From the IMG/VR virus record IMGVR_UViG_3300042453_005789, positions 1-40,100 of that record: a DNA stretch of 40,100 bases. One strand, 5' to 3'. The position numbers and the translations under genes are program-made. The DNA comes from a virus. Shown in pieces: positions 1 through 19,312 of the stretch. How positions within the stretch are numbered: the first letter of the stretch is position 1; each line of letters opens with the position of its first letter. The notes below the pieces were generated by a model. It did not search any database. It was not told where the DNA came from and saw only the letters and a program-made list of their open reading frames with translations.

Positions 1-63
1 TTGTTCCTTAGTTTTCACAATACAAAGGCAAAAGGCTGCGCCTTTTGACAGTGGCGCTGGATA

Positions 64-126: not shown

Positions 127-149
127 CGCGGCGGGGCGGGACGGTTGTC

Positions 150-425: not shown

Positions 426-460
426 AATCCTGCTGCCCCGCCCCGCCTTTTCAAAATATT

Positions 461-500
461 TTTAAAAAAAAGGCCCCGACGTTTTCACGTCAGGGCCTTT
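461..500 (-). terminator. Rho-independent terminator of pal
   Basis: On the - strand a stem with one mismatch (arms at 487-500 and 469-482, aaaggccctgacgt paired to acgtcggggccttt) is followed directly by a T run. It lies 23 bases beyond the pal stop codon and faces the right way to end pal transcription. Confidence 0.85.
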
Positions 501-522
501 GATACAGAAAGTCTAAAGAAAA

Positions 523-1047
523 CTATTTCTTCAGAACGGTGATGGAGCGACGGTTTTTGGACCAAGCGGACTCGTCAAAACCAGCAACAGCAGGACGCTC
601 TTTACCAAAGCTGATGGTGGTGATGCTGCTGGCAGGGACACCGGAAGCCACCAAGAAGTCTTTTGTGGCGGTGGCACGACGGGCACCCAAGGCAAGGTTG
701 TATTCACGGGTTCCGCGCTCGTCGGTGTGACCTTCGACGATCAGGGCCAAATCAGGGTTGGTTTTCAACCATTCGGCTTGCTTGCGCAGGGTGGCTTTAG
801 CGTCTTCGTCCAAAGCGTGGCTGTCATAAGCAAAGTACACGTTGGCGCCAACAGCGGCATCAAAAGCGCCTTGTTTTTCGTTGATTTGGCTCAGATCCGT
901 ACCGTAGGTGGTGACGTTCACATCACTGGGAGTTGAGCTGGCGCTGGTGTCGGAAAGATCGTTTCCTGTGGAAACGTTGTCTTCACCGCCGGCACAAGCG
1001 GCCACAGCGACCAAAAGAGAGACAGACAAAAGAATTTTTTTTATCAT
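523..1047 (-). CDS. pal: Peptidoglycan-associated lipoprotein Pal
   Basis: Pal anchors the outer membrane to peptidoglycan and works with the Tol complex in cell-envelope constriction. The 174-residue protein begins with a lipoprotein signal peptide whose lipobox ends VAAC, so Cys18 is the likely lipidated residue. A Ser/Thr/Asp-rich linker (about 22-60) leads into an OmpA-like domain (about 68-172). That domain has the hallmark HTDERG followed by N-x3-GARRA (Asp109 and Arg123/124), the residues that bind diaminopimelate in this family. The length is normal for Pal. The start has an SD-like aagg a few bases upstream. No tol genes are on the visible side; upstream neighbours are separated by 475 bases of repeats. 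The identification is secure. Confidence 0.95.
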   Translation of the reverse strand: MIKKILLSVSLLVAVAACAGGEDNVSTGNDLSDTSASSTPSDVNVTTYGTDLSQINEKQGAFDAAVGANVYFAYDSHALDEDAKATLRKQAEWLKTNPDLALIVEGHTDERGTREYNLALGARRATATKDFLVASGVPASSITTISFGKERPAVAGFDESAWSKNRRSITVLKK

Positions 1048-1331
1048 AGGTTTACCTTAACGTTGATGATGAATGAATAACTGCGCAGGATGGGGGAGAT
1101 TTTCAATCTCTTTTTCTCAAGCGACTGTGAATATACATTTTTTCTGACCAAAGAAAAGGACTTTTATCAAAAAAAAAGGATGAGAAAAATTTGCGTGTAT
1201 CATTTCGAACACAGGGGTAACAGATGGCTCTTTCTTTTTTGCAAGCAACAAAAAAATGTGTCGTGCTTTCCCTATTTGCGTACTGAGCCAAGAACAAACA
1301 CCTACGTAGATGTTCAAGTAGCCGTCAAACC

Positions 1332-1437
1332 CAGGGCTGTTCATGTCTATGCATCGTCATACCGGACAAGGGAGCGCAGCGACCGCTGATCCGGAATGAC
1401 GCAGAATCGTTAGGTTCTGGCAGAAAGGAACAGCCCT
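1332..1437. repeat. MITE-like element with 10-bp terminal inverted repeats
   Basis: The stretch 1333-1437 begins with agggctgttc and ends with its exact reverse complement gaacagccct. Bases 1332-1394 are the inverted copy of 64-126. The element is about 105 bp and encodes nothing. I see no clear target-site duplication; 'gtcaaacc' occurs just outside both ends (about 1324-1331 and 1441-1448) and might be a flanking direct repeat. The class (MITE, REP or other) is an inference. Confidence 0.6.
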
Positions 1438-1450
1438 AGCGTCAAACCTC

Positions 1451-1490
1451 TAAAAAAGCAAAAACGATAGGCTCAGCAGAGCCTATCGTT
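1451..1490 (-). terminator. Rho-independent terminator of ihfB
   Basis: A perfect 12-bp stem (1463-1474 with 1479-1490, loop agca) is followed on the - strand by a T-rich tract. It lies 33 bases beyond the ihfB stop and is oriented to terminate it. Confidence 0.85.
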
Positions 1491-1494
1491 ACAG

Positions 1495-1529
1495 TTACCT
1501 GTCACCTGTCACCTGTCAGGTGTTACCTG
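1495..1529. repeat. Heptad tandem repeat array 1
   Basis: There are five 7-base units: ttacctg, tcacctg, tcacctg, tcaggtg, ttacctg. CCT falls every seven bases, except that the fourth unit is inverted (AGG). The array runs into the last codons of ihfB. The same period-7 pattern occurs at 16155-16256 and 16873-16896. Confidence 0.7.
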
Positions 1530-1810
1530 CCTTTCGGATTCAACCGATCCCGCAGAATTTTTCCCGATTTGAAAAACGGGGTGGCTTTGGCAGGAACGAA
1601 GACAGATTCCCCTGTTTTGGGATTTCTGGCTTGGCGCTGCTCGCGATGACGTACGGCAAAAGACCCAAAGCCCCTGAGTTCAACGCGGCCGTTATGGGCC
1701 AGCGCTTGGGTAATTTCCTCAAAAAACAAAACCACAGCCTCTTCCACCTGTTTGGCGGACAGATGAGGGTTTTCTTTGCACAAAGCATCAATAAGTTCAG
1801 AGCGTTTCAT
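1523..1810 (-). CDS. ihfB: Integration host factor subunit beta
   Basis: IHF beta pairs with the alpha subunit to bend DNA in replication, transcription and site-specific recombination. From the ATG at 1810 the protein has 95 residues, the usual length, and begins MKRSELID. An upstream in-frame start at 1834 would add eight residues, but the SD-like aaggac sits in front of the internal ATG. The HU/IHF signature is complete: RVELRGFGSF, then RNPKTGE, VPAKATPFFKSGK and LRDRLN. The ELRGFGSF form and DRLN end favour IHF beta over HU. The last codons overlap a heptad repeat array. Its position just downstream of rpsA on the same strand matches the conserved rpsA-ihfB order, although cmk is absent upstream. 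Confidence 0.93.
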   Translation of the reverse strand: MKRSELIDALCKENPHLSAKQVEEAVVLFFEEITQALAHNGRVELRGFGSFAVRHREQRQARNPKTGESVFVPAKATPFFKSGKILRDRLNPKGR

Positions 1811-1853
1811 AATCAATACAGTCCTTTTCGACACAACACATAACAGACAAAAC

Positions 1854-1879
1854 AGAGGGAAGGCATACCCCCTCCCTCT
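1854..1879 (-). terminator. Putative terminator or processing hairpin after rpsA
   Basis: The arms agagggaagg (1854-1863) and ccctccctct (1870-1879) form a 10-bp stem with one mismatch between rpsA and ihfB. On the - strand it is followed by a mixed gttttgtctgtt tract, so termination may be partial. Confidence 0.5.
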
Positions 1880-1895
1880 TCATCCCCCTTGGCGA

Positions 1896-3668
1896 TCAAG
1901 ACGAGGCTTCATCCTTCGAGGTTTTGGCACTTGCGCTTTTCTTAATGGCAGGGCCCAAAATATCACCCAAACTGGCGCCGCTGTCTGCGGAACCATATTC
2001 GGCCATCATTTGTTTCTCTTCCTTGATTTCACGGGCTTTGATGGACAACGTGATTTCTTGTTTGGACAAATTCAGGGCAGTGATGAGGGCATCAATCTTT
2101 TCCCCCTTGGCAAAACGATCCGGACGTTGTTCGCTGCGATCACGGGACAAATCCGATCTTTTGATAAAGAGAGGCTGTTCAAAGTTGGGCAGCGTCACAT
2201 GAATCCCCGCATCTTTAATGTCGGATACGGTACAGGTCACAATATCACCCTTCTTCAGCTTGACAGAGGGAGCGCTGCTGGTGGAAGAAGCCTCCTCAGA
2301 CTTCGATGCGCTGGGCTGGGCCGCCTGCGATGAAGCGTTGGCACCCAATGTCACGGACATTTCTGCCGGATCAACTTTTAATAGGGTGACGGTTATGACA
2401 TCGCCCTTGGCAATGGTTTTTAACGCCTCAGCCCCTGAGCCTTGGGGGGTGAAATCTTCCGCGGCCAAAGTGCCACGAATACCGCTTTCAAGTTCAACCA
2501 ACACTTTGGCGTTATAGGTTCGCACCACAACCCCCTGCAATTCCGTGCCCTCGGGGTGCTGATCCGCAAAACGTTTGTAGGGATTTTCCTGACACTGTTT
2601 CATACCCAGACTGATGCGGCGCTTGTCGGTATCCACATCCAAAACCATCACATCAACATCTTGGCCAATGGTCACAACTTTTTTAGGATCGGGGTTTTTA
2701 TCCGCCCAAGAGATTTCAGACATATATACCAGACCCACAATGCCAGGCTCCAGCTCAACAAACGCCCCATAATCGGTGACACTGCTGATGCGTCCGGTCA
2801 GTTTGGTGCCCACGGGGAATTTGGTGACGGCCACTTTCCAAGGGTCTTCCTCCAGATGCTTCATGCCCAGAGAAATGCGCTTGGTTTCGGGGTCAATTTT
2901 GGTGATTTGAACCTCGATGGTTTGGCCAATTTCCAGCGCTTCGCTGGGGTGATTGACGCGGCGCCAAGAAATATCCGTAACATGCAACAATCCATCCACA
3001 CCGCCCAGATCCACAAAGGCCCCAAAGCGGGTGATGTTTTTGACCACGCCCTTGACCACTTGTCCCTCGATGATGTTTTTCAGGAACTCTTCGCGGGCTT
3101 CGGTGCGGGATTCTTCTAAAATGGCACGACGGGACACGATGATGTTGCCGCGTTTTTTGTCCATTTTCAAAATCTGGAACGGTTGTTCGATATTCATCAG
3201 CGGTGACAAATCCCGTATAGGGCGAACATCCACTTGACTGTTGGGCAGAAACGCCACGGCGCCCTGCAAATCAACCATCAAACCACCCTTAACACGGCTG
3301 AAAATTTTTCCGGTGGTGGGTTCATCTTTGGCGTAGGCTTTTTCCAATTCAATCCACGCCTCTTCACGGCGGGCTTTTTCACGGCTCAGGACAATGGCCC
3401 CGTCGCGATCTTCGTAACGATCCACGTAAACATCGACTTCATCGCCCACGGCGGGGGTTTTGCCATCGGCTTGCTCAAATTCCTGTAAAGGGACCATACC
3501 CTCAGATTTTAAACCCACTTCAATCAGGGCAAAGCCCCCGAACAGATCCATAACGTGACCGCGCAGAACAGAGCCCTCAATTTTGCCCTCCGCCCCTAAA
3601 ACTTCATCCAGCAACGCGCCAAAGGATTCTTTGGATTGAGATGTTTGCTGTGCTTTTTGATGTTGCAT
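1896..3668 (-). CDS. rpsA: 30S ribosomal protein S1
   Basis: S1 binds mRNA and helps load structured or weak-SD messages on the 30S subunit. The 590-residue protein (ATG at 3668 preceded by aaagg at good spacing; the TTG six bases further out is less likely) carries six S1/OB repeats. The third and fourth are the most canonical, with FGAFVDLG...GLLHVTDISW and YGAFVELE...GLVYMSEISW. Repeats one, two, five and six are more diverged, as is normal. The C-terminus ends with a YGSADSGASLGDILG segment that I recognise from alphaproteobacterial S1. A Ser/Ala-rich linker separates repeats five and six. ihfB follows on the same strand. Confidence 0.97.
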   Translation of the reverse strand: MQHQKAQQTSQSKESFGALLDEVLGAEGKIEGSVLRGHVMDLFGGFALIEVGLKSEGMVPLQEFEQADGKTPAVGDEVDVYVDRYEDRDGAIVLSREKARREEAWIELEKAYAKDEPTTGKIFSRVKGGLMVDLQGAVAFLPNSQVDVRPIRDLSPLMNIEQPFQILKMDKKRGNIIVSRRAILEESRTEAREEFLKNIIEGQVVKGVVKNITRFGAFVDLGGVDGLLHVTDISWRRVNHPSEALEIGQTIEVQITKIDPETKRISLGMKHLEEDPWKVAVTKFPVGTKLTGRISSVTDYGAFVELEPGIVGLVYMSEISWADKNPDPKKVVTIGQDVDVMVLDVDTDKRRISLGMKQCQENPYKRFADQHPEGTELQGVVVRTYNAKVLVELESGIRGTLAAEDFTPQGSGAEALKTIAKGDVITVTLLKVDPAEMSVTLGANASSQAAQPSASKSEEASSTSSAPSVKLKKGDIVTCTVSDIKDAGIHVTLPNFEQPLFIKRSDLSRDRSEQRPDRFAKGEKIDALITALNLSKQEITLSIKAREIKEEKQMMAEYGSADSGASLGDILGPAIKKSASAKTSKDEASS

Positions 3669-3850
3669 GAACAATGCCTTTGATTTGGTTAATGAAAGAC
3701 CTTCCTTATACGATGCTGTTTTTCGTTATGCAAGGTGTCTTTGGGGTTTTTTTTTTGGAAAAAACGAAGGGAGGCAAAAGCGTTCCTGCGAAAGATCACG
3801 ATTCTTCTTCACGCGGCGATGCGACCTAAGGACGCGAAGACCTTCCTGAT

Positions 3851-4642
3851 TCAAGGCCTCCCTTGCTCCGCCACCACGGCGGCGGCGGCGGCATCCAGAT
3901 GATATTGGGGGACATCGCGCATCAGGGCGGTGATTTTATCGTAACCTTCCAGATCCACCAAAACCGAAGGATCATGCCGTTTGGCTTTGTCCATAAGGAT
4001 TGTATAACGCTGGTGCAGAGCTTTGGTCAGGGCGTTGGGTTTATCCTCCATGGCGGCATCCAGATTTCCGCTGTGCAGGGCATAGCTGTCTGGTCCTGCG
4101 CTGGGCAGACAGGTGGTGAAGGTGGCCTCATCCAGCCCCCTCAGCCGGATACGCCAGCAGCGGGAACGCACCGTAATCGGCAAAGCCCCCAGGGCCGACG
4201 TGGTTAGAATCAAGAGCGATCCTGCGGGCGGTTCCTCCAGCCGTTTCAGCAGAGCATTGGCCGCCTGATGGTTCATGGTTTCCGCCCCCGCAATGATCAG
4301 TGCCCGCCCCGCCCCCAAACTGGACGTTTTGCCCAAAAAGCTGCACGCCTCGCGGATGGCATCCACAGAAATGCCGGTTTTATCCTCAGGTTTTTTCACC
4401 ATCATCACATCGGGGTGGGTGCCCTGCATCAGATGGGCCATCACACGGGCCTCTTGGTTTTTTTCCAAAAACGCCGCCACCAAATGCTGGGCCACCAGGG
4501 CCGCGCCGCACCCAGGGGGCCCATACACCACCCACGCATGGGCCAAACGCCCCCCCGCCAACGCATCATCAAACGGCCGCAGGGACGGTCCATGATACCG
4601 GATCAAGGCCGTCATGGCCTCTGGCGAAAGGGGTGTTAGCAT
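3851..4642 (-). CDS. holB: DNA polymerase III delta' (clamp-loader) subunit
   Basis: This 263-residue AAA+-like protein resembles HolB, which helps open and load the beta clamp. Visible signatures are a P-loop-like GPPGCGAA near residue 42, then LIIAGAETMNHQAANALLKRLEEPP around 112-138, and an SRC motif (VRSRCWRIRL) near 158. The NALLK-LEEPP and SRC motifs are the family hallmarks. The P-loop lacks the normal GKT/S, which agrees with delta' not hydrolysing ATP. It is shorter than many alphaproteobacterial homologues, with a weak C-terminal domain. A gamma/tau (DnaX) origin is less likely because of the degenerate P-loop. In many alphaproteobacteria holB follows tmk, but no tmk is visible here. 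Confidence 0.8.
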   Translation of the reverse strand: MLTPLSPEAMTALIRYHGPSLRPFDDALAGGRLAHAWVVYGPPGCGAALVAQHLVAAFLEKNQEARVMAHLMQGTHPDVMMVKKPEDKTGISVDAIREACSFLGKTSSLGAGRALIIAGAETMNHQAANALLKRLEEPPAGSLLILTTSALGALPITVRSRCWRIRLRGLDEATFTTCLPSAGPDSYALHSGNLDAAMEDKPNALTKALHQRYTILMDKAKRHDPSVLVDLEGYDKITALMRDVPQYHLDAAAAAVVAEQGRP

Positions 4643-4695
4643 AAGACGGGAAACATTTCCTTCTTTTTAACCTTCCCCACGGTATCATTTTCAGA

Positions 4696-4723
4696 TTGAC
4701 GATCCAAGTGAAACTCGCTAACT
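4696..4723 (+). promoter_or_regulatory. Predicted sigma-70 promoter of tRNA-Asn
   Basis: TTGACG at 4696-4701 and ctaact at 4718-4723 are separated by 16 bases and end 13 bases before the tRNA. The -35 match is good and the -10 is moderate. Confidence 0.5.
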
Positions 4724-4736
4724 GTTTTGTCTGTGT

Positions 4737-4811
4737 TCCTCGGTAGCTCAGTGGTAGAGCAAGCGGCTGTTAACCGCTTGGTCGGGGGTTCGAATCCCTC
4801 CCGGGGAGCCA
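4737..4811 (+). tRNA. tRNA-Asn (anticodon GTT)
   Basis: A complete cloverleaf can be folded: acceptor tcctcgg pairs with ccgggga with one G-T wobble. The D arm contains agctcagtggtagagc. The anticodon stem is gcggc/gccgc-like around loop ctGTTaa. The T arm is ggggg-ttcgaat-ccctc. The discriminator is G and CCA is encoded. The anticodon GTT reads asparagine codons AAC and AAU. It is the last host gene before the prophage-like cassette. Confidence 0.96.
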
Positions 4812-5144
4812 TTTCATGTTTTTGAACTTTTCTCTCCCCCTCATCACCATTCTCTCAAGGCCGGCTTTCTGCCGTACTTTGCGGGTTTTTCACTTGGCGG
4901 CGGTGTTTTGGGGGTTTTGCGCACGGCTTCGCATGGGTTCGCTCAGAGGGGTTTTCTCTGTAACGTCACTTGGCTTTTTGCGCCAAAGCCAAGTGGCAAA
5001 AGTCATTGTTTTTTAATGTTTTTTATTTTTTAAGGTTCGAAACCCCTTTGCACACCCACTTGAGCGAAGCCGTGGCGGTTAAAGCGAAACGCTGCGAAAA
5101 CAAAGGTGATTGAGCGAAATTCAGGGTCGTTTTATCCTGTGGTT
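4812..5144. other. Non-coding junction between tRNA-Asn and the recombinase cassette
   Basis: No gene is supported here. An 11-bp perfect hairpin (4967-4977 with 4985-4995, loop ttgcgcc) is followed by a tract with several T runs (about 5008-5031). It could terminate tRNA transcription on the + strand. The prophage attachment site may be in this junction, but the other end is outside the window. No second copy of the tRNA 3' end was seen. Confidence 0.5.
4967..5015 (+). terminator. Putative terminator downstream of tRNA-Asn
   Basis: The stem cacttggcttt/aaagccaagtg is perfect and is followed within about 12 bases by a six-T run. The gap before the T run makes it a weaker candidate than a classical terminator. 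Confidence 0.45.
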
Positions 5145-5336
5145 ATGAAACAGGAATTCCCCATCATTGATTCCCCTCTTTTGGAGGTTGCCGAAATCCT
5201 AGCCCTAGGCATTCTGCGCCTGCGGGAAAAACATTCTGCCTTTTCTGGCCCAGAAAGAGAGATTTCCCTGGACTTCTCGGGGCCTTCTGAGCCTTCATGG
5301 ACACACCTTAAAAACACAGGAAAAAACAATGAATAA
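5145..5336 (+). CDS. Small conserved protein of the recombinase cassette
   Basis: This 63-residue protein starts at the ATG at 5145; the frame extends 13 codons upstream without a better start. It has a helical segment (LEVAEILALGILRLREKH) followed by a short SLDF-type acidic tail. I recognise the layout AEILA.G..RL....-LD from small ORFs that precede DUF2924 and serine-recombinase genes in alphaproteobacterial islands, but I cannot name a function. Its stop overlaps the start of the DUF2924 gene by eight bases, which suggests translational coupling. It might be a regulator or partner of the recombinase. Confidence 0.65.
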   Translation: MKQEFPIIDSPLLEVAEILALGILRLREKHSAFSGPEREISLDFSGPSEPSWTHLKNTGKNNE

Positions 5337-5760
5337 CAATGTATTGTCGCAGATCAATGACCTTAAAACCCTCACCATGGTCCAGCTGCGACAACGCTGG
5401 CTGGTGTTGTTTACAACCGACCCGCCAGCATATGGGCGGGCTTATTTGGAACGTCGCCTTGCTTACCGTATTCAGGAATTGGCCCACGGCACCGACACGG
5501 CGCTGTTAGAACGAAAAATGGAGGAAGCGGCCAAAAAGCGGCTTGGAGAAAGGAACCACGGACGCAAAACCATAGAACGCCCTGTCAGCGGCACGCGCAT
5601 CACCCGGGAATGGCAGGGGGAAGAGCACCAGGTGACGGTGCTGGCCGATGGCTTTGACTATCGCGGCCAGAAATACAACAGTCTCTCACGCATCGCCAAA
5701 GTGATTACCGGCACCGTCTGGTCGGGGCCGGTGTTTTTTGGTCTGAAACGGGGGTCCTGA
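5329..5760 (+). CDS. DUF2924 domain protein
   Basis: This 143-residue protein ends with the strong DUF2924 signature: GTRITREWQGEEHQVTV, then GFDYRGQKYNSLSRIAKVITGTVWSGPVFFGL. The N-terminal half is helical and includes a YLERRLAYRIQELA segment. The family is of unknown biochemical function and is found next to large serine recombinases in alphaproteobacterial islands and prophages. The domain resembles DNA-associated 'REWxG...H.V.V...F.Y.G..Y.SLS.IA..ITG' folds fused to restriction or helicase proteins, so a DNA-binding accessory role is plausible. The stop overlaps the recombinase ATG (ATGA). Confidence 0.88.
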   Translation: MNNNVLSQINDLKTLTMVQLRQRWLVLFTTDPPAYGRAYLERRLAYRIQELAHGTDTALLERKMEEAAKKRLGERNHGRKTIERPVSGTRITREWQGEEHQVTVLADGFDYRGQKYNSLSRIAKVITGTVWSGPVFFGLKRGS

Positions 5761-7100
5761 TGAAACGCCAAGAGCCGCTTCAAAAACGCATCCGCTGCGC
5801 CGTCTATACCCGAAAATCCACCGAAGAAGGGCTGGAGCAAGAGTTCAATTCGCTGGATGCTCAGCGGGAGGCTGGTGAATCCTACGTGGCCTCCCAAAGG
5901 CACGAAGGCTGGACCTTGGTACCGGATCACTACGATGATGGGGGGTTCAGCGGTGGCAGCATGGAACGTCCCGCTTTGAAGCGATTGCTGGCCGATATTG
6001 CCGCCCGTAAGATTGATGTGATTGTGGTTTATAAGGTTGACCGTCTGTCCCGCTCGCTGTCCGATTTTGCCAAGATGGTGGAGATTTTTGATGCCAACAC
6101 TGTGTCTTTTGTCTCGGTGACTCAGCAATTTAACACCACCACAAGCATGGGGCGGCTGACCCTGAATATCCTTCTGTCCTTTGCCCAGTTTGAGAGGGAA
6201 GTCATCGGCGAGCGCGTGCGCGACAAAGTCGCGGCCAGCAAGCGTAAAGGGATGTGGATGGGCGGGTGCCCGCCGCTGGGGTATGACATTGTCGAGAAAA
6301 AACTGGTGGTAAATCCAAGTGAAGCCGAGTTGGTGCGGCGCATTTTCCAGCGGTTTTTGACGCTGCGCTCTTGCACCACGCTGGCGCGGGAGCTTCGGGC
6401 CAAGGGCTGCCGCACCAAGAGTTATACCACCCAAACAGGCCGCGAGAAAATCGGCACACTGATGGACAAGGGCTATGTGTACAAGCTGCTGAGCAACCCG
6501 ATGTATCTCGGCGAGATTCATCACAAGGGACAGATTTATGATGGTCAACACGCGGCGATACTCGACCGTGATACATGGAACGCTGTACACGCTGTGATGC
6601 AGGAAGGCCCCCACCAACGGGCCAACACCACCCGCCGCCAAACGCCGGCTCTGCTCAAAGGGATCCTGAAATGCAGCGGCTGTCAGTGCGCCATGACCCC
6701 CACCCACACCCGCAAAAAGGGCAAACTGTATCGGTATTATGCGCCCAGTGCGGTGATGAAAGCCAAATGCACCGATTGCCCTGTGGGAACCATCCCCGCT
6801 GGTGAAGTTGAAGAGGTGGTTTTAAGCCAGTTAACCGATATTTTCCGAACCCCTGAAATGGTGGTGAGCATATGGAAAGCTGCATATGCCCGCGATGATG
6901 ACATCACAGAAAAGGATGTGGTGGAGGCGCTGGGCAACATGCAGGCCCTTTGGGATCACCTGTTTCCCGCTGAGCAAGCCCGCATTTTGCATCTGCTGAT
7001 TGCCCAAGTGTTGGTCAGCACCAAGGGCGTGGATTTGCGCCTGCGTACTGATGGCCTGACCTCTTTGGTCAAGGAATTACAGGCACGAGAGGCCGCATGA
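5760..7100 (+). CDS. Large serine recombinase (putative prophage integrase)
   Basis: The 446-residue protein begins with a resolvase catalytic domain (about 11-160): YTRKS with nucleophile Ser20, the ERPALKRLL segment (68-76), YKVDRLSRS (91-99), and the family-typical FNTTTSMGRLTLNILLSFAQFEREVIGERVRDK. A recombinase domain follows (about 170-280), then a zinc ribbon with Cys305, Cys308, Cys337 and Cys340. Large serine integrases insert phage DNA between short attP/attB sites without a tRNA requirement, so the nearby tRNA-Asn may be incidental. At 446 residues it is on the short side, with little room for a long coiled coil. It starts in an ATGA overlap with DUF2924 and ends in an ATGA overlap with the next gene. 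All catalytic residues I can check are present. Confidence 0.93.
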   Translation: MKRQEPLQKRIRCAVYTRKSTEEGLEQEFNSLDAQREAGESYVASQRHEGWTLVPDHYDDGGFSGGSMERPALKRLLADIAARKIDVIVVYKVDRLSRSLSDFAKMVEIFDANTVSFVSVTQQFNTTTSMGRLTLNILLSFAQFEREVIGERVRDKVAASKRKGMWMGGCPPLGYDIVEKKLVVNPSEAELVRRIFQRFLTLRSCTTLARELRAKGCRTKSYTTQTGREKIGTLMDKGYVYKLLSNPMYLGEIHHKGQIYDGQHAAILDRDTWNAVHAVMQEGPHQRANTTRRQTPALLKGILKCSGCQCAMTPTHTRKKGKLYRYYAPSAVMKAKCTDCPVGTIPAGEVEEVVLSQLTDIFRTPEMVVSIWKAAYARDDDITEKDVVEALGNMQALWDHLFPAEQARILHLLIAQVLVSTKGVDLRLRTDGLTSLVKELQAREAA

Positions 7101-7513
7101 ACCTCAACCCTAACTTTAGCCCAGCCACGGTGAATATTCACATTCCCCTTCGCCTCAAGCGACGTGGAGGGCGCAAGCTGATCGTTACCCCAGAAGGCCA
7201 TACCCTTGCGCCAACCCCCGCCCAAAAACGCGAACCCGATGCACCGCTGGTCAAAGCGTTGCTCAAAGCTTGGAAATGGCAGAAAGACCTTGAATCTGGC
7301 AAAGCCCAAAGCATGGAAGACATCGCCAAACGCCATAACATCGACACCGCCAGCGTTTCCCGCCTGATGCGCCTCAATTTTCTGGCACCCGACCTGAAAT
7401 TAGCCATTCTGGAGGGGACGCAGCCACGAACCATGCTGCTTCAGGACCTCATCAGAAAAGTGTGGCCGGATGATTGGGAGGGGCAGAGGGGTTTTTTTTG
7501 GAGTCAATGGTGA
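7097..7513 (+). CDS. Helix-turn-helix-like protein of the recombinase cassette
   Basis: This 138-residue protein starts in an ATGA overlap with the recombinase. It opens with a basic IPLRLKRRGGRKLIV segment. A central helical region follows in which SMEDIAKRHNIDTASVSRLMRLNFLAPDLKLAILEG (about 72-107) reads as a helix-turn-helix of the resolvase or ParB type. I recognise this protein as the regular last member of the DUF2924/recombinase cassette in alphaproteobacteria. Its role is not established; a DNA-binding directionality or regulatory factor is an inference from position and fold. The C-terminus ends in a WPDDWEGQRG segment. Confidence 0.75.
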   Translation: MNLNPNFSPATVNIHIPLRLKRRGGRKLIVTPEGHTLAPTPAQKREPDAPLVKALLKAWKWQKDLESGKAQSMEDIAKRHNIDTASVSRLMRLNFLAPDLKLAILEGTQPRTMLLQDLIRKVWPDDWEGQRGFFWSQW

Positions 7514-7616
7514 CATAAAAGACATACCTATGGTTGTTTTTTGGGTTGCATATTATCATATTTTAAATTATAGATTGGCCACCTGTTTTCATTAGACTTC
7601 TTTAAAAATTTGACTA

Positions 7617-8384
7617 GTGAGCAAACAAATGATTGTATCAACGGGAAACTTTTTATTAAAATGCTTTGATGCGCCTTCAATTGAAATATTAAATGAGTTA
7701 TTATCTTTAGCTTTAAAAAATTTCAATATTAAATACTGGGCATACCTTTCCCTACCGAACGATACGAGATATAACTCTGATAACAGACCTATTTGTTATA
7801 CCAATTATCCCCAAGAATGGGTTGAGTTTTATTTTGAAAATCGGTTTCAAACAATCGATCCTATTTTACTAAGCTTTCAGAGCGCAGAAGAACCCTATTT
7901 ATGGAGCTGTTTTTTAAAAGAACTTTCGTTATCAACTCAGCAAAAAAAGTTTTTTAAACAAGCTTCGGATTTTCAATTGCATGAGGGGATAACTTTCCCC
8001 ATACGCTTCTCTGATCGAAAAAATTCAGCCATTTTGACTTTTGTTCCGGAAGACAATCCACTTGAATCTTATGGATTTTTTAGTACAAATAGAGATGATA
8101 TAAAAATTATCGCCCACACTTATCATTCATTAATCAAGAAATTTCACGAGCATCACCCAAGACAAGATTTTAATTTGTTAACCCCAAGAGAACAAGAATG
8201 CTTGGCATGGGTCATTCAAGGAAAAAGCGATTATGAAATTGGCATTATTCTTGGCAACCTATCAAAAGCGACCGTTACCTCAATGATTGGCAATGCGAAA
8301 CAAAAACTAGACTGCTACAGTCGTACCTCAGCCGCGTTTAAAGCCCTTCAACACAATTATATACCACCGGTTATCCCCGAATAA
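7617..8384 (+). CDS. LuxR-family quorum-sensing regulator (LuxR solo)
   Basis: This 255-residue protein has an autoinducer-binding domain (about 20-170) and a LuxR-type helix-turn-helix (about 186-245). The TraR/LuxR invariants are all present: Trp68, Tyr72, Asp81, Pro82, Trp96 and Gly124 correspond to TraR 57, 61, 70, 71, 85 and 113, each shifted by exactly 11. Glu192, Leu196 and Gly202 match TraR 178, 182 and 188, shifted by 14. This implies binding of an acyl-homoserine lactone and DNA. No luxI synthase is in the window, so it would sense a signal made elsewhere. The gene is much more AT-rich than its neighbours, a sign of separate acquisition. The start is uncertain (GTG 7617 or ATG 7629; no strong SD). 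It converges on the endolysin gene and lies between the integrase cassette and lysis genes. Confidence 0.9.
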   Translation: MSKQMIVSTGNFLLKCFDAPSIEILNELLSLALKNFNIKYWAYLSLPNDTRYNSDNRPICYTNYPQEWVEFYFENRFQTIDPILLSFQSAEEPYLWSCFLKELSLSTQQKKFFKQASDFQLHEGITFPIRFSDRKNSAILTFVPEDNPLESYGFFSTNRDDIKIIAHTYHSLIKKFHEHHPRQDFNLLTPREQECLAWVIQGKSDYEIGIILGNLSKATVTSMIGNAKQKLDCYSRTSAAFKALQHNYIPPVIPE

Positions 8385-8424: not shown

Positions 8425-8880
8425 TTAAAAAGAGAAAAAGGCTTTGGCATACAGGGCAGCTTCCGCCTCCCTCCGTCTCACCAACCCCTCCAGCTTCCGT
8501 CCCCCCGCCCATACCCATTTTCTAAACTCTGGCGGCACATTGGTATGATCGCCACGATTGACCTTCCGTCGCAGGGTGGAGCGTTGCAGGGCGCCGGCAC
8601 CGAGATTGAAAGTGAAGGAAACCAGAGCATCGAACTGCCCATCGGTAAGCGGCACAGTAATCAGCCGTAGAACGGCGTGTTCGGCTGTTTGCAGATCTCT
8701 GCGCAGTAGGCTTTCAGCTTGTTTGGCGGTGATACCGCTGGCAAACTGTTGTCGCTCATCGGGATTTACCGCATGGCCGTAGCCGATGGTGGGGTAGCCG
8801 GCCAGGCAGATATAGATGGCGGCTGAAAATCCTTCAAAGTGTTTGATCAGGTCGATACCGGATTGTGTTACATGGCTCAT
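8425..8880 (-). CDS. Phage endolysin, GH24 lysozyme (muramidase)
   Basis: The 151-residue protein is a T4/P22-type lysozyme that cleaves the N-acetylmuramic acid to N-acetylglucosamine bond of peptidoglycan. The catalytic pattern Glu-8aa-(Asp/Cys)-5aa-Thr fits exactly: Glu16 (HFEGF), Cys25, Thr31 (TIGYGH). Further family motifs are LTDGQFDALVSFTFNLGAGAL and a C-terminal RRREAEAALY. There is no signal peptide or SAR helix at the N-terminus, so export would depend on the holin encoded nearby. It is the last gene of the leftward late operon. Confidence 0.93.
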   Translation of the reverse strand: MSHVTQSGIDLIKHFEGFSAAIYICLAGYPTIGYGHAVNPDERQQFASGITAKQAESLLRRDLQTAEHAVLRLITVPLTDGQFDALVSFTFNLGAGALQRSTLRRKVNRGDHTNVPPEFRKWVWAGGRKLEGLVRRREAEAALYAKAFFSF

Positions 8881-10037: not shown

Positions 10038-11234
10038 TTAGGCTTTGGCGGCGATCAGCCAGTTTGTGCCGTCTGATACGACCTGCACGGCTTGGTTCTG
10101 GGTGGCGAGGGTTTGTCCGTTGGCACCATCAATGGTTTGTGTGAGCGCAGCGGTGGTGGTTTCCATGTATTCGCCCAGCAGGCTGCCTTCTTGCAGCTGC
10201 ATGCCCCATGCCTGCACGCCAAGGGCGGTGTCGCCAACGTAGGACGTGCCAGCGTTATAGAGGCGCACGGTTTGCGTCACGCTGCCCGCGCTGGTTGGCA
10301 CACTGATTGTGATACGCAGCAGATACCAGCCGCTGCCAAGGTTGGTGACACTATTCGATAACAGCGTGTAGGTGCCGGTGTTGTCGGTGAATGGCACCGC
10401 GCCAGTGGAAAGGTTCGCCCGGATTTGTGCCCGATTGGTCGCTGTGCCGTCATCCAGCATCAGGTAGGCTTCACTCCGGCCATCGGCCTTGAGTCGCACG
10501 GCGGCGGTGAGAATCGTAACACCCCCAGGTTTGCTATACGCCTGCTTGATTTCGTGCACGCCGTTATCCACCGTTTCCAACACACGATCGGCGGTGGTGG
10601 TGCCATCGGGTGCGGCGGCAGTATTGGCGGTGACGGTAACGCGGGTCTTTATCCAAGCGGCGTTGTCGAGTTGCTGGCTTTGGGTGAGCAGGTTTTGCGC
10701 TGCCCGCAGTGTCACGGCATTTGCGCTGCTGTCGATTTTTTTGACGGTGATAGGAAAGCCGTTGCCGATGGTGGCGGCGCTCGGCAAGCGCACCTCAACA
10801 GCGGCGGTATTAGCGCCCACCGCCAGCAATTTGCCTCTGTCGCTGGCTTGCACCGCATAACTGGCGGAAACGCTGGCCACCGTGACAAACTGCCCGCTGC
10901 CGACGAACGCGGACCATGAACCGCCGCTGTAAACAAAATACCCAGCCTCATCCTTGATCCACGCCCTGAGGCCATCGGGAATGACATAGAAATACCACTG
11001 GCCGCTGTCGTAATGGGCGAGTTTATTGGACTGGCCGCTCCAAGCCCCTGATCCAGCCCCGTTAATGAACCAGACCTGCCCATTTTGTGGGCTGATGGGC
11101 GGGGCGCTGAGATGCCGGTCTTCGAGGCTTAGGCTTACCAGCGCATCCACCATCAGCAACGCTTCATTATGCGTGACCTCTTTCTGCGCTTGGGCAGCCT
11201 GAATGTAGGGCAAGGCAAAACGTGGGGTGCTCAT
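10038..11234 (-). CDS. DUF2793 tail-fibre-like protein
   Basis: The 398-residue protein starts with the DUF2793 signature (RFALPYIQAAQAQKEVTHNEAL, about 5-26), found in alphaproteobacterial phages and gene transfer agents near the tail tip. The N-terminal 110 residues continue with the WSGQSNKLAHYDSGQWYFYVIPDGLRAW segment typical of the domain. The rest (about 160-350) is Thr/Asn/Ala-rich and resembles jelly-roll carbohydrate-binding modules of tail proteins (a 'DNAAWIKTRVTVTANT..PDGTTTADRV' opening). It probably helps bind surface sugar. The start overlaps the stop of the tail-hub gene by four bases. It is the distal member of the tail operon, before the lysis genes. Confidence 0.85.
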   Translation of the reverse strand: MSTPRFALPYIQAAQAQKEVTHNEALLMVDALVSLSLEDRHLSAPPISPQNGQVWFINGAGSGAWSGQSNKLAHYDSGQWYFYVIPDGLRAWIKDEAGYFVYSGGSWSAFVGSGQFVTVASVSASYAVQASDRGKLLAVGANTAAVEVRLPSAATIGNGFPITVKKIDSSANAVTLRAAQNLLTQSQQLDNAAWIKTRVTVTANTAAAPDGTTTADRVLETVDNGVHEIKQAYSKPGGVTILTAAVRLKADGRSEAYLMLDDGTATNRAQIRANLSTGAVPFTDNTGTYTLLSNSVTNLGSGWYLLRITISVPTSAGSVTQTVRLYNAGTSYVGDTALGVQAWGMQLQEGSLLGEYMETTTAALTQTIDGANGQTLATQNQAVQVVSDGTNWLIAAKA

Positions 11235-12868
11235 ATCGTTTTCTCCAAAGGGGCGCCGCGCCCAACGGTGGCGGACAGTTGATACACGCGCACAGCAATT
11301 GCTGCCTGCACGCTGCCAAAATCAGCCGTTTGCTGGGCGGCGGTGTAAGTAATCGTGGGACTGGCGGTTGCAATCGTGCGCATCACCGCCGTGCCGTTCA
11401 GAATTTCGATCTCGTAGGCTTCGCTGGTTTCTCCAAGCGGCACCTCGGCATTATCCCTCCAACCGCCACCTATCCGCGTGCGGCGTTTCCATGTAAGGGT
11501 GAGATCGCCCGCGCTGTTGCGGCGGCCGGTGAGATTAACGGGTGATAAGGGCTTCAACCCTTTGGCGGTATTGCTGAAGCTGGCCGCCGTGGCGGAGGTG
11601 ATATCCCGCCCCGCCGACACGGCTTTATAAGATCGTGATGCGCCAATCAGGTCGAGGCCATCGGGAATGCGCTGCACCGTGCTGCTGGAGAGCACTACAA
11701 ACCGTTCATTGAGCGCATGGGTGCCAACGTCGGCTTCCGTGCCGCGCCGTCCGCGTAATAATTTTGAGAGGCGGTAGGTTTTTGGCGCGATGAGTTCCGC
11801 CGTCTGCCACTGGATGATTTCATCGCCCAGAAGACCAGCGTTCGCGCCATTCAGCACATCAAGGGCGGGGGCGGACAGCAGCGTGCCCGTGCGGCTCAAT
11901 ACCACTGTCACGGTGTTTTGATAATCCCACAGTGTGGTGCGTCCCGCCGCCAACACGGTTGTGGCTTTGCCGGTAATGGCAGCAACGGGGCTGCTCGCGA
12001 GAAAGCCATAATCGGTGGTGTTGGCCGAGCGATACACCGTGGCGCCGCGCCAACTGCTGTTTTCCTGCCTGTCCACTGCCAGATAAAACCCTGCGTTATC
12101 GTCGGCATCCTGCAACATCGGAATGTCGAGCAAAAACAGCGTCGTGTCGCCCACGTTCGGCACCACCTGCACGGGGATGGTATCATCGCCGCCGGGGTTG
12201 GACTGGTTGTAGACGCTGCCATCCTCGGCAAAACCCTCACAGCGCAATTGCTGGCCGGACAGCGCGGTTTTCTGCAAACGGATGCGGTGAGTGGCACTGG
12301 CCGTCACAATATCCAACACATCGCCTGGCTCGAGGCAGGCGTATTTCACCGGCAGGGCGAAACGGTACGAGGTGCGCTCCGTCCATTCGGTGTACAGCAG
12401 CACATCCGCCACTTTCCGCGCATAATCAGCTGTCATGACGATGGGCACGGTGACGTTACTGGCGTTCTCGGCCTCGTTCACCTGCCGCTGCGCCAACTGC
12501 GTGCCCTGCTGGTAATCGGCACCCTTGCTGAGATAATTCACATTGAGGGTCTGCGACAGCTCGCTTTCCTGCCGCCGGGTGATGGTGAGGAGTTCCCGAC
12601 TATTACCGTCCCCTTGGGGTATCAGGTCGTTGATAGGAATGGTGGCTGCCACCAACTGCCCACGTGGCACAAAGCGGATTTTGCCGCTGCTCTCGACAAT
12701 ATCGAGAAAAAACGCCCGTTGCAGATGCTCCAGCGACGAGCGCACGCTGGCGCGGTTGCTCACCACAAACCCCTCGATGGTGCCCGTCACCAGCGATAAA
12801 TCCACCTGTGACAGGGCAAGCCCCGCCTTCTGGCACAGATTCGCCAACACTTCCTGCAGCAAGGCCAT
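11231..12868 (-). CDS. Tail hub / host-specificity protein, C-terminal part
   Basis: The 545-residue protein begins at a domain that is normally internal in GTA-type tail hub proteins: LLQEVLANLCQKAGLALSQVDLSL, then GFVVSNRASVRSSLEHLQRAF and GKIRFVPRG. It continues with the tail-hub features LLYTEWTERTSYRFALPVKY, LEPGDVLDIV, SKLLRGRRGTEA and LTWKRRTRIGGGW, then ends in an Ig-like stretch. The expected N-terminal module (GPRL.DLK.QSS..G) is missing here but is encoded separately at 16251-16868 and again at 14518-16149. The start ATG is six bases from the preceding stop, with only a weak SD. I infer a split gene that still works as two proteins, or one part of a modular locus. Confidence 0.8.
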   Translation of the reverse strand: MALLQEVLANLCQKAGLALSQVDLSLVTGTIEGFVVSNRASVRSSLEHLQRAFFLDIVESSGKIRFVPRGQLVAATIPINDLIPQGDGNSRELLTITRRQESELSQTLNVNYLSKGADYQQGTQLAQRQVNEAENASNVTVPIVMTADYARKVADVLLYTEWTERTSYRFALPVKYACLEPGDVLDIVTASATHRIRLQKTALSGQQLRCEGFAEDGSVYNQSNPGGDDTIPVQVVPNVGDTTLFLLDIPMLQDADDNAGFYLAVDRQENSSWRGATVYRSANTTDYGFLASSPVAAITGKATTVLAAGRTTLWDYQNTVTVVLSRTGTLLSAPALDVLNGANAGLLGDEIIQWQTAELIAPKTYRLSKLLRGRRGTEADVGTHALNERFVVLSSSTVQRIPDGLDLIGASRSYKAVSAGRDITSATAASFSNTAKGLKPLSPVNLTGRRNSAGDLTLTWKRRTRIGGGWRDNAEVPLGETSEAYEIEILNGTAVMRTIATASPTITYTAAQQTADFGSVQAAIAVRVYQLSATVGRGAPLEKTI

Positions 12869-12871
12869 GAT

Positions 12872-13981
12872 CTAAGCGTATCCCAAAAACAAGCGAAACC
12901 AGTAATACCAGTCGGTGGTGAGGCGTTCGGAACGGCTGGCAATGGTGATCATACGGCTTTCAGGCTGATAACTTGAATTCAAAAGCCGCTTGAAATAGCT
13001 ATAAGCCAAAGCCACCCGCGAGGCATGGCCGGGGATGAACAGGGCGTTGGGTGCGAGGTATTCCGGGCGGCTGGCGAGCCACCGCTGCGCATCAAAGGGA
13101 TCGGTAGAGGAGGCAAATTCGTAGTGTTTTGTGGCACTAAACAGCTTGTCTTTGAGGAACGCGAAGGCGTTATCCATCAGCGCCTCGTAGCGGTTGCCGG
13201 TGAGGATGGCGATTTCCAACCATGGCTCCACGTCATAGACATGGTAATGCAAGGAGTCGCGGCGGATGTAGTCGATGCTCTCGCCAGGATGGTTGGCGGC
13301 GCGGGGTATATCGTGGATGCTTTGGTTAAACGGCACACCAGACGCAGGCACGATGACGGCGGCATTGCCGTAGGGAAAATTCACCAGCGCGTGGGCATCA
13401 ATGGTCGGCAACAGCGCATTAAAAGCGGCAGTATCTTCCTGGGCGTAATAGCACAACAACAACTTTTTGAGGTGATGCGTGTACCAGTTGCCATAGCGGG
13501 TGGCGCGGCCGGGGAAGGTGAATCCTTCAGCAGCGTTCCGCACCTTGGTCAGCCAGGCGTTCAGGATGGCATTTTCGGATGTGCTGAATAAATCCCGATG
13601 CAGACGAATTGCCTTCAAAAACCCCTCAAAGTGCGTCTCGTTGATGGGATTTCCATCGGGGATGTTGAGGCTTGTCCAATCGAGCAGTACGCGGCGGATT
13701 TTGTCGCGGGCGGCGGTATCGAGAGAATACCGATACCACTGGCTGATGACCAACAGGCGGCGGGTATCCTGAAAGCCCCGGCGGCTTTTCTTCACCGCAC
13801 CGCTGCTGGTATCGGCTTGCCCTTCGGACAGCAGGTTTTGCACCGGCTGGTGGTCGGTGGCAATGTACTGCTTGCCGTATTTCTCCAAGCGCTTGCGCTG
13901 GACGTTGTGGAACGACAGGCCGACATTGGTGTCGGCCAGTTGCCCTGCCGCCAACGCGCCGCTGCTTTCGAAAAATTCCAA
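12872..13981 (-). CDS. Alginate-lyase-like protein (putative tail depolymerase)
   Basis: This 369-residue protein has features of the alginate lyase family (alpha/alpha-toroid fold): RYGNWYTHHLKKLLLCYY around 192-209, matching the family HGTWYDLQ segment, and RRDSLHYHVYDVEPWLEIA around 273-291, matching R..SLHYs...LE.LLrLA. Such lyases cleave polysaccharide by beta-elimination, so a tail-associated capsule or matrix depolymerase is a reasonable inference. There is no signal peptide. The only start is TTG at 13981; the frame is open about six codons further without ATG, and the first residues read like an internal segment. The 5' end may therefore have been lost when the AT-rich cupin block was inserted just upstream. 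Confidence 0.7.
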   Translation of the reverse strand: MEFFESSGALAAGQLADTNVGLSFHNVQRKRLEKYGKQYIATDHQPVQNLLSEGQADTSSGAVKKSRRGFQDTRRLLVISQWYRYSLDTAARDKIRRVLLDWTSLNIPDGNPINETHFEGFLKAIRLHRDLFSTSENAILNAWLTKVRNAAEGFTFPGRATRYGNWYTHHLKKLLLCYYAQEDTAAFNALLPTIDAHALVNFPYGNAAVIVPASGVPFNQSIHDIPRAANHPGESIDYIRRDSLHYHVYDVEPWLEIAILTGNRYEALMDNAFAFLKDKLFSATKHYEFASSTDPFDAQRWLASRPEYLAPNALFIPGHASRVALAYSYFKRLLNSSYQPESRMITIASRSERLTTDWYYWFRLFLGYA

Positions 13982-14018
13982 ACCAGCAATTAATTGTAAA
14001 TATTATGTTTTAACCAAG

Positions 14019-14441
14019 TTAGAAGCAAACGACGCATATCCAATTAGCACTATATCCAATTTCGGTTTTTATTTCATACGGTGTTCCAGTTGGGATTAAC
14101 ATCCAATCTCCTGTTTTATAGGTTTTTCCGTTCACTATCGCTTCACCTGATGTAATAACGCGAAATACAGGACTTTTATGTGCATGAGAAGGAACAGTGG
14201 TGCCTGGGGCAACATCTGTAATTCTCATTTCTCTTAAACCGCCTAAATCAACGGGGACAATATCTCTTTGAACGCCTTCTATCTTTGATTGATCTGTTAC
14301 ATCCATTTCAGTATTTAAGTAATCAACAAAATTGTCCTTATCTACAATGTTGTTGATTTTAAAAGGATCAACAAAATTGTCCTTATCTACAATGTTGTTG
14401 ATTTTAAAAGGATCAACAACTTTCATTTTTGAAACGTTCAT
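14019..14441 (-). CDS. Cupin-domain protein (moron)
   Basis: The 140-residue protein has a C-terminal cupin fold (about 68-138): PGTTVPSHAHKSPVFRVITSG, then GKTYKTGDWMLIPTGTPYEI. The His-x-His is present but the Glu of the first cupin motif is replaced by a hydrophobic residue, so metal binding is uncertain. The N-terminus carries two identical 15-residue units (DPFKINNIVDKDNFV) encoded by a perfect 45-bp tandem duplication. The gene is much more AT-rich than the tail genes on both sides, so it was probably acquired separately. No enzymatic role can be assigned; small-molecule or sugar binding is typical of the fold. Confidence 0.7.
   Translation of the reverse strand: MNVSKMKVVDPFKINNIVDKDNFVDPFKINNIVDKDNFVDYLNTEMDVTDQSKIEGVQRDIVPVDLGGLREMRITDVAPGTTVPSHAHKSPVFRVITSGEAIVNGKTYKTGDWMLIPTGTPYEIKTEIGYSANWICVVCF
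14322..14411. repeat. Perfect 45-bp tandem duplication in the cupin gene
   Basis: Bases 14322-14366 and 14367-14411 are identical, followed by a partial third start (14412-14419). The unit is 45 bases, so copies add or remove 15 residues without a frameshift. Identical copies imply a recent duplication or an expandable site. Confidence 0.95.
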
Positions 14442-14517
14442 TTTAAGGTCTTTCTTGTATGAGTTAGCGTATCAATTGAGATTTATACTTTTGTTAAAAA
14501 GCTGATGCAAGATCTTT

Positions 14518-16149
14518 CTAGTACCCCTCACCAATTAGCACAAAGTCATATTTCGTCTGCGTCACCACGAACCGCCCATCGCGCAGTGCCAGCACCTGCC
14601 CTGGAAAGGCCACGGTGCCGTACTGAATGAGCGAGAGATAACCACCGTCCTTGGCAAAGCCCTCTTTTGGCGAATAGCTGCGCACGCGGTTGCCGCCATA
14701 CGAGGTGCTCCAGATGATGCCGTAGGGATCAGCTGGGTGAATGCTCACATCCATGGCGTTGGTGCCGTGGTTCAGCGTTTTGGTGATGGTATTGGTCGCG
14801 GGGTTGATGACCTGCAAAATATCTTGCCCGTTGACCACCACCCAGATAAAGCCATTCACGGAGTTAACGGCAATGCCCCACGGAAAGAAACCCAGAGCAA
14901 TCGTAGCCTTGACCGCTCCCGTGCTTGGATTCAGGCGTACCACGCCTTCGTTGGTCGTCAGCCACAGATCGCCGTCAAGACCAAACGCCAGTTCGGTGGG
15001 GCATTCGGTTACTGTATAGCTGGCAACAACGCTGCCCGTGGCAGGATTGATCTTCTGCACAAGATCTGCCCACGGGCAACTGATCCAGACAAAGCCATCG
15101 GCAGCCACTTTCACGCCCCACGGGTAAATCCCCGTGTTCACCGTGGCAACAATCGCGTTTGTCGCAGGATTGATGCGCTGTACGGTGTTATTGGCATGGC
15201 AGGTGACCCACAGGTGGCCGTCTACGGGGCTGATTGCCGCCCGCACGGGCTGTGCGTCAAGATTTCCCAGATAATCCGCGCTGCTGCGGCCAATCGTTGC
15301 CTTAACCCGAAACGTTGCGCCGTCAATGCGGGTGACGGTGCGTTGCAGGCGGTTCACGACATAAATATCGCCGTCCAGCCCCTCGACGAGACCGTGCGGG
15401 CCTTCTTCGGTGAACACACGCCCCAGCGTGTCGATGACTTCCGCCTCCACATTGGGCAAGCGGTTGCCGTAGCGCGAGAGATCAATGGTGTCGAACCGCA
15501 GATAGGCATGGTCACGGTAGGCAGGCGTTAAGCCGATACCCTCGATGCTTTCGATCAGCTCATCGGGGGCTTGGTCTTCGCCGCCCAGATAAATCTCAAC
15601 ATTCAAATCTCGCCCATTCACACCGCGATTGTTGGCGCGAAAATCATAGACAAGGTTGCGGTTCATCCAGATGCGCCGCACCGCCGAAATCCCTTGGCGG
15701 CGTTTAAAGGTGAGTTCGTCCTCATCTTCAAAGCTCTCCCGTGCACTGCCTTCCTCTTCCAGCGGCGGCGTATTGGCGAGGGATACAGCGAAACTCGCCA
15801 CATAAAATTCCCGCGTTTGGTAGACAGGTTGGGTTCGCCCGCTCTTGCCGCCCTCAATCACCGTGGTGCCCACCAGCACGTTTTCCGATGTGGCGGTGAT
15901 TTCGGTTGACCAAATGACGTTCCCTGCCACGCGGGTGATGCCATACACCAGCGGAATCATCGCGCCGTGGGCCGAGGATTGTGCTTTCAGGTCTTCGAGG
16001 CGCGGTCCCACCTGATAGGCATCGGCGTTGGGCAGGCTGCCCGCTGCGCTAAACGCGCCCATAGCGGCGGCAATGCCTAGCCCTAAGCCCGCCATGGCAA
16101 AGCCCGAGCCCATGCCTGCGCCAGCAGCACCGAGTACCAGCATTGCCAT
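14518..16149 (-). CDS. Tail-hub N-terminal module fused to a YVTN beta-propeller
   Basis: The first 200 residues are a glycine-rich hydrophobic segment followed by the GTA-type tail-hub N-terminal module (GPRLEDLKAQSSAHGAMIPLVYG...AGNVIWSTEI, then GLTPAYRDHAYLRFDTIDLSRYGNRLPN). This is paralogous to the whole 205-residue protein at 16251-16868. From about residue 240 to 520 it has repeats of about 42 residues of the type W-x-NPATxxxVATV, PWGIAVNxVNGFIWV and LQVINPATNTITKTL, which is a YVTN/NHL beta-propeller. Propellers serve as binding platforms, so receptor or glycan recognition is likely. The 543-residue length is normal for a two-domain protein, and the C-terminus ends with a beta strand, not the usual hub domain. 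It is probably an alternative or accessory tail-tip protein. Confidence 0.75.
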   Translation of the reverse strand: MAMLVLGAAGAGMGSGFAMAGLGLGIAAAMGAFSAAGSLPNADAYQVGPRLEDLKAQSSAHGAMIPLVYGITRVAGNVIWSTEITATSENVLVGTTVIEGGKSGRTQPVYQTREFYVASFAVSLANTPPLEEEGSARESFEDEDELTFKRRQGISAVRRIWMNRNLVYDFRANNRGVNGRDLNVEIYLGGEDQAPDELIESIEGIGLTPAYRDHAYLRFDTIDLSRYGNRLPNVEAEVIDTLGRVFTEEGPHGLVEGLDGDIYVVNRLQRTVTRIDGATFRVKATIGRSSADYLGNLDAQPVRAAISPVDGHLWVTCHANNTVQRINPATNAIVATVNTGIYPWGVKVAADGFVWISCPWADLVQKINPATGSVVASYTVTECPTELAFGLDGDLWLTTNEGVVRLNPSTGAVKATIALGFFPWGIAVNSVNGFIWVVVNGQDILQVINPATNTITKTLNHGTNAMDVSIHPADPYGIIWSTSYGGNRVRSYSPKEGFAKDGGYLSLIQYGTVAFPGQVLALRDGRFVVTQTKYDFVLIGEGY

Positions 16150-18172: not shown

Positions 18173-18771
18173 AGGCGAATCTCCACGAGAGATATTTGAT
18201 CCCAGACGAACAGCTCGTGGGACTGGATGCGGATGGCGAGGCGATCGGTGTCAAAGCGCACGGGCACGTCAAATTCGCAGTCCGCCGTGATCAGCACGCT
18301 GGCGGCGGGGGCAGTGGTAAACGTCACAACCCCCGTTGTGTAATCCACGGTAACACCCGACGATTGCAGCACACTGTCCTTGTAAATCTTCACCGTGCCC
18401 GAGACGGGCTTTTTCAGCGGGCGGGTTTCGTTTTCACCACCGCTGGTGTAGGTTTTGGTCAGCTGAAAGGCGGTTTGCGTGCCGTTACCGGTGCCAATCA
18501 GCTGTCCCGTCACGCGATAATCGCTCCAGTCCTTAAAGCGAAAACCGTAAGCACGCCCCTTGCGGGCACGGAAAAAGCTGATGACCTCCGCCGCTTGGGT
18601 GCGGTTTTTGATGCCTGTTGAAACATCATAGCGTGCACGCGCACTGTCCCAGCTTTGATTTCGCTGCTCAAAGCCCGATTGCAGGATGACAATGTCAGTG
18701 AGGTATTCTGGGCCGCCCGTGGCGCCGTAAGCAATGGCATCGGGGAAACGGACTTCGTGGAAGTTTGACAT
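18169..18771 (-). CDS. DUF2460 distal tail protein
   Basis: The 200-residue protein carries the DUF2460 signature: FHEVRFPDAIAYGATGGPEY near the N-terminus, GFEQRNQSWDSARARYDVSTGIKN and FFRARKGRAYGFRFKDWSDY. The family corresponds to GTA gp12, which forms the distal tail ring. It lies upstream of the DUF2163 gene with a 4-base overlap. A + strand moron separates it from the tape measure gene, which is unusual in a tail operon. Confidence 0.9.
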   Translation of the reverse strand: MSNFHEVRFPDAIAYGATGGPEYLTDIVILQSGFEQRNQSWDSARARYDVSTGIKNRTQAAEVISFFRARKGRAYGFRFKDWSDYRVTGQLIGTGNGTQTAFQLTKTYTSGGENETRPLKKPVSGTVKIYKDSVLQSSGVTVDYTTGVVTFTTAPAASVLITADCEFDVPVRFDTDRLAIRIQSHELFVWDQISLVEIRL

Positions 18772-18820
18772 TTTTTTAGATGGTTTTTACAATTGGAACA
18801 ATGAAATTGGAGATTGAAAA

Positions 18821-19312
18821 ATGAATGAAATCCATAATGAGACGGAGCGACGTCGTCATAGTTATAAGCCAGAAAAAATTCGCATATTATTCATAGGAGA
18901 GTCAGCACCAGATCGTGGGACGTTTTTTTATAGAGAAAATAGCGGTCTTTACCGCGAAATGAAGAAGGGATTCGAAAGTCAGTACGGTTCAATTGATGAT
19001 TTCTTATCTTGGTTTAAAACGAATGGTTTTTTTCTTGATGATCTCGTCTTAGCTCCCGTTAATAAAAAAGCTAGAAAGGAGCGCAATCACTTTCATACAA
19101 TCTCAGCCAACGATTTAAGATCAAGAATTCAACAGTATAAACCGATAGAAATAATAGGCCTTCTCAAAAATAAAAGTTTTCAGAAGGCCGTTTCAAATGC
19201 GGCAACACAAGCTGGTTGTAACGTCAAAACTTTCCTTCCTTTTGCTGGAATGGGACATCAGAAATCTTTTCAAAAGGAGTTCTCTCAAATACTTCAGGGA
19301 ATCTCTCTTTAA
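18821..19312 (+). CDS. Uracil-DNA-glycosylase-fold-like protein (moron)
   Basis: The 163-residue protein runs opposite to the tail operon and is much more AT-rich than its surroundings. It has a supported start (ggaga seven bases before ATG). Near residues 20-37, IRILFIGESAPDRGTFFY resembles the IGESPP..G.FFY loop of uracil-DNA-glycosylase-like proteins. Further, FLDDLVLAPVNK and a C-terminal FLPFAGMGHQKSFQKEF are visible. I do not recognise catalytic residues well enough to claim base excision. Inserted genes like this often give the lysogen a benefit, such as protection from other phages; that is inference. Its last bases overlap the end of the tape measure gene tail to tail. Confidence 0.6.
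   Translation: MNEIHNETERRRHSYKPEKIRILFIGESAPDRGTFFYRENSGLYREMKKGFESQYGSIDDFLSWFKTNGFFLDDLVLAPVNKKARKERNHFHTISANDLRSRIQQYKPIEIIGLLKNKSFQKAVSNAATQAGCNVKTFLPFAGMGHQKSFQKEFSQILQGISL

Follow-up and report, generated by a model that had tools for sequence, protein, structure and literature searches.

The window, a 40.1-kb virus record of the IMG/VR type, carries at the edge of a prophage in an uncultured alphaproteobacterium an intact gene for a LuxR-type transcription factor whose closest relatives are receptors of the bacterial host's own order. The protein looks like a prophage-associated LuxR solo with its host-order ancestry as the most interesting trait, that is, one more example of a familiar type, taken up from the host, and not a new sort of phage sensor. 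As a whole, the best explanation, in which our confidence is evenly balanced, is that of an acyl-homoserine lactone (AHL)-responsive receptor of the host lineage, which is carried as prophage cargo and acts in the ordinary LuxR manner on the host regulon. The features on which the analysis relies are collected in Table 1.

Table 1. Coordinates of the features discussed, numbered along the window.
Feature	Position	Strand	Remarks
tRNA-Asn	4737..4811	+	left boundary of the integrated DNA
Integration cassette	5106..7513	+	small ORF 5106-5336; DUF2924 5329-5760; serine recombinase 5760-7100; 138-aa phrog_14161 protein 7097-7513
luxR upstream region	7514..7616	+	AT-rich; without strong palindrome or + strand promoter match
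LuxR-type transcription factor (solo)	7617..8384	+	255 aa from GTG; ORF intact
Autoinducer-binding domain (PF03472)	7689..8129	+	residues 25-171; Y64, W68, Y72, D81, P82, W96, G124, T141
LuxR/GerE DNA-binding domain (PF00196)	8175..8339	+	residues 187-241; E192, L196, G202; one-residue insertion in the HTH turn
Phage lysozyme/endolysin (PF00959)	8425..8880	-	convergent with luxR, 40 bp apart
AT-rich (33% GC) insert	13972..14519	-	cupin-like 140-aa gene 14019-14441; missing from five relatives
AT-rich (36% GC) insert	18764..19312	+	163-aa gene 18821-19312; missing from relatives

Domains and relatives of the receptor

By every sequence criterion, the gene behaves as a luxR. Both Pfam domains passed the cut-off (Autoind_bind, E = 5.5e-23; GerE, E = 4e-11), and the closest PDB relatives of the protein were TraR (1.5e-14), followed by LasR, RhlR, CviR, and SdiA. 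With TraR, LasR, and RhlR it shares the two-domain architecture and nine conserved residues, although it is remote from them in sequence (phmmer E about 1e-14). These nine residues had been matched to TraR in an earlier note on this DNA, and the alignment confirmed each of them: W68, Y72, D81, P82, W96, and G124 correspond to TraR W57, Y61, D70, P71, W85, and G113 at a shift of 11, whereas E192, L196, and G202 correspond to E178, L182, and G188 at a shift of 14. The lactone contacts Y53 and T129 of TraR are likewise present, as Y64 (shift 11) and T141 (shift 12). With the Pfam domains and all invariants in place, the ligand pocket and the HTH, previously proposed to be functional, do look intact by sequence. 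The HTH turn contains one additional residue (LGNLSKATV). The true start of the protein is probably the ATG at 7629, since the N-terminus of the homologue fits that length. An AlphaFold model built from the single sequence had a pLDDT of 34, and no use was made of it.

The AT-richness and the lack of a luxI partner in the window, both claimed before, were also borne out. The GC content of luxR is 0.35 versus 0.523 in the host flank and 0.555-0.571 in the cassette and late genes (35% against 52-57% in the surroundings), and there were zero matches to Autoind_synth in the 40.1-kb record, even at an E value of 1.

The host itself is represented by bases 1-4811 of the record, which hold an OmpA-family gene, rpsA, a gene of the DNA polymerase III delta-prime type, and tRNA-Asn. 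Two metagenome-assembled genomes (MAGs) titled Alphaproteobacteria bacterium RE-18aug17-8 (G024) and RE-18aug17-138 (G025) encode rpsA products with 91-94% identity to that of the window, any other found being at most 57% identical; the host order is represented by four genomes in the comparison, and the identity of the host is to be read at a genus-like level only. The nearest homologue of the receptor is a solo of G025 (C34 10815-11555), 54% identical over residues 9-249, with the same invariant residues, HTH insertion, and AT-richness; luxI was likewise not found in that sister MAG. Another genome of the same order, G038, encodes a 37% identical LuxR that adjoins its own divergent luxI and differs further by a nearby tyrosine integrase and by the lack of the HTH insertion, while G024 yielded no luxR and no luxI. 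In a tree of 47 rows, the receptor and the G025 solo formed a supported pair (100/99), which G038 joined next (99/98), and the LuxRs of Aeromonas phages were placed well apart from this clade. The best LuxR of an annotated phage collection was only 31% identical over most of the length, and scans of viral and genome contigs with the single protein revealed no relative. A profile-guided scan of viral sequences gave one match at 39%, but it spanned two reading frames on an AT-rich contig with transposase-like ORFs and was set aside as uninformative. Since both the closest sequences and the tree partners are those of G025 and G038, the receptor belongs, on these sequence grounds, with the LuxRs native to the alphaproteobacterial order of its host. 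The earlier view that it looks distinct as a phage receptor is therefore not supported. What the earlier note had named as counterevidence, an identical host gene outside prophages with a cognate luxI, was found in part: a chromosomal copy exists in G025, though it is not identical, and a luxI does lie beside a homologue, though beside the more distant one of G038.

Unlike the gene in the window, the G025 solo belongs to a chromosomal contig, where TolC and a biotin-carboxylase-like gene flank it. No recognizable prophage surrounds it, and its neighbors, identified by reading the sequences (UDP-glucose metabolism, biotin carboxylase, TolC), look chromosomal. G024 has a lon-like gene after TolC, hence luxR is accessory in G025 too. 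The G025 luxR lies in an AT-rich patch and is trailed codirectionally by two further AT-rich genes (L353:8436-10660), whose products of 527 and 188 aa are of unknown family and which are possible targets or effectors.

The prophage and the junction at luxR

G025 aligns to the window at 95% as far as 4814, just beyond tRNA-Asn, and the integrated DNA therefore starts there. An origin of luxR by chromosomal synteny at this locus was rejected, since G025 carries other genes there, among them a remnant in which pieces of a recombinase and of a late gene of this phage are fused. Between tRNA-Asn and the fused remnant, G025 also has a gene (L399:7017-8421) with a match at E = 3.7e-68 to PDC-S50, a candidate defence model.

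The phage is lambda-like in its portal, capsid E, and gpA terminase; the minus strand encodes its late genes, of which lysozyme is the last. Two other AT-rich single-gene inserts interrupt this body (cf. Table 1), and their absence from relatives indicates that the phage collects such cargo, which suggests that luxR is comparable, moron-type cargo. The first adjoins tail genes of phrog_4271, and its flanks are almost joined in the five relatives; the gene of the second is on the plus strand within the minus-strand late operon and had no match in Pfam, PHROG, or PADLOC. Separate portions of phrog_4271, a tail-protein family of 1309 residues, are matched by two minus-strand ORFs (11231-12868 and 14518-16149). 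The tail gene therefore seems to be split, and a 369-aa ORF whose family is unknown lies between the two. Furthermore, a DNA methylase that bears a ParB_N domain at its N-terminus (32482-33729, minus strand) is encoded upstream of the terminase and of an HTH_3 regulator (31610-31963).

The position of luxR between the recombinase cassette and the lysis gene was confirmed. Its description as phage-borne stands insofar as the gene is within integrated phage-type DNA; membership in the phage is probable yet short of proof, given a cassette–lysozyme junction unlike the arrangement in the relatives. In 20 relatives with recognizable early genes, these abut the cassette on its 5' side (14 of 20) or its 3' side (6 of 20), and late genes or lysozyme adjoin it in none, which raises the possibility of two elements with luxR in the middle. 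In our judgement, it is somewhat more likely than not that luxR is part of the phage genome. None of the phage relatives carries luxR, although the nearest ones end at most 75 bp from lysozyme; in the relative L091, the last 60 bp past lysozyme were compared with the LuxR C-terminus, and the score was reached by 7% of shuffles.

A possible though less probable explanation is that luxR is not a phage gene proper, but a host or island gene trapped between a prophage and a distinct integrase-cassette element, or what is left of one, at tRNA-Asn; the junction could also be chimeric through assembly. Besides the gene order in the 20 relatives, this would fit with the chromosomal location of the G025 luxR, with the 69% identity of the cassette to that of its nearest viral relative as opposed to 82-96% for the phage body, and with the occurrence of DUF2924 cassette pieces at two G024 loci. 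These divergent identities, the two loci, and the junction also mean that the cassette may have been inverted, exchanged, or part of a second element, and it may be mobile on its own. However, the luxR of G025 is in the TolC neighborhood and not at this locus, one inversion of the body or the cassette also accounts for the gene order, and the 3' end of tRNA-Asn (GGAGCCATTTCAT) has no second copy within 4818-40100 that would mark the end of an element between cassette and phage. The cassette pieces in G024 (L397 and L398; 87-89% identity to parts of 4815-7513) cover portions of the small ORF, DUF2924, and serine recombinase with about 500 bp upstream, and one of the loci is truncated and lies beside a recR-like gene. 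A 17-nt direct repeat around the cassette (4944/7484) was near chance level, the expectation being estimated by hand, and was discarded.

Possible lysis control and known phage receptors

Phage LuxR receptors have been on record since 2019 (PMC6456758). In Aeromonas phage ARM81ld, LuxR works with an XRE partner on a phage promoter to start lysis (PMC9894119), and prophages of Roseobacter, also alphaproteobacterial, use xre-luxR-luxI modules controlling lysogeny (PMC13345283, 2026 preprint). By these precedents, an intact receptor in a prophage could be an eavesdropping switch that senses host AHL and controls induction or lysis, as the earlier note had envisaged for lysis or excision; we consider this unlikely, and no evidence for such tuning was found. 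The gene faces lysozyme convergently from the opposite strand, an orientation that does not directly favor control of lysis, and a terminator-like hairpin (8930-8908) sets lysozyme apart from the genes upstream of it. No lux box was recognized in the luxR upstream region or at the lysis genes, and no motif common to the upstream regions of the window, G025, and G038 luxR genes rose over background. Moreover, luxR is not next to a repressor or early genes: the gene directly upstream encodes the 138-aa cassette protein and not an XRE regulator, and the S24-type repressor of a relative adjoins the cassette at its early end, a region beyond this contig.

The receptor thus lacks the XRE partner and the regulatory-region position of the known phage systems. 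The LuxRs of Aeromonas phages ARM81ld and Apop (KT898133; Silpe and Bassler 2019) likewise belong to temperate phages and have no luxI, but they are 29% identical to the present protein, occupy a separate tree branch, and have a regulator gene immediately upstream in an XRE-luxR operon; the C4-HSL response and lysis control were demonstrated there. The Roseobacter modules include luxI and xre, in contrast to the lone luxR at the late end of the phage.

Predicted action in the lysogen

In the preferred reading, a receptor inherited from the host-order LuxR lineage, predicted to be AHL-responsive and having no synthase of its own, would be packaged as a moron, a lone AT-rich gene carried as cargo at the late end of the tRNA-Asn prophage. 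It would fold around AHL released by neighbors or relatives, dimerize, and bind a DNA site resembling that of its chromosomal homologue. In the lysogen it would probably extend or redirect the host AHL regulon (lysogenic conversion) and not serve as a dedicated lysis switch.

The divergence from the G025 solo is uneven: the DNA-binding domain is 71% identical (dN 0.20) and the ligand domain 47% (dN 0.49), with dS saturated. Conservation over such a distance argues for a working protein. Since the HTH region was conserved while the ligand domain drifted, our best guess from these sequences is a DNA site common to both proteins together with an altered ligand range, and this pattern provides a concrete, testable prediction of shared DNA sites. 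A bolder version, which we find very doubtful, is that the prophage captured a host-order AHL receptor whose DNA recognition was kept and whose pocket diverged, with the result that in lysogens another signal would drive the quorum regulon of the host. If true, it would mean that a virus rewires host quorum sensing and does not eavesdrop on it. For the phage LuxRs studied so far, direct transfer from the host is not apparent, as stated for ARM81ld and Apop (PMC6456758). Because the nearest relatives of the present receptor belong to the host order, it would be a case of the host-to-phage transfer route itself.
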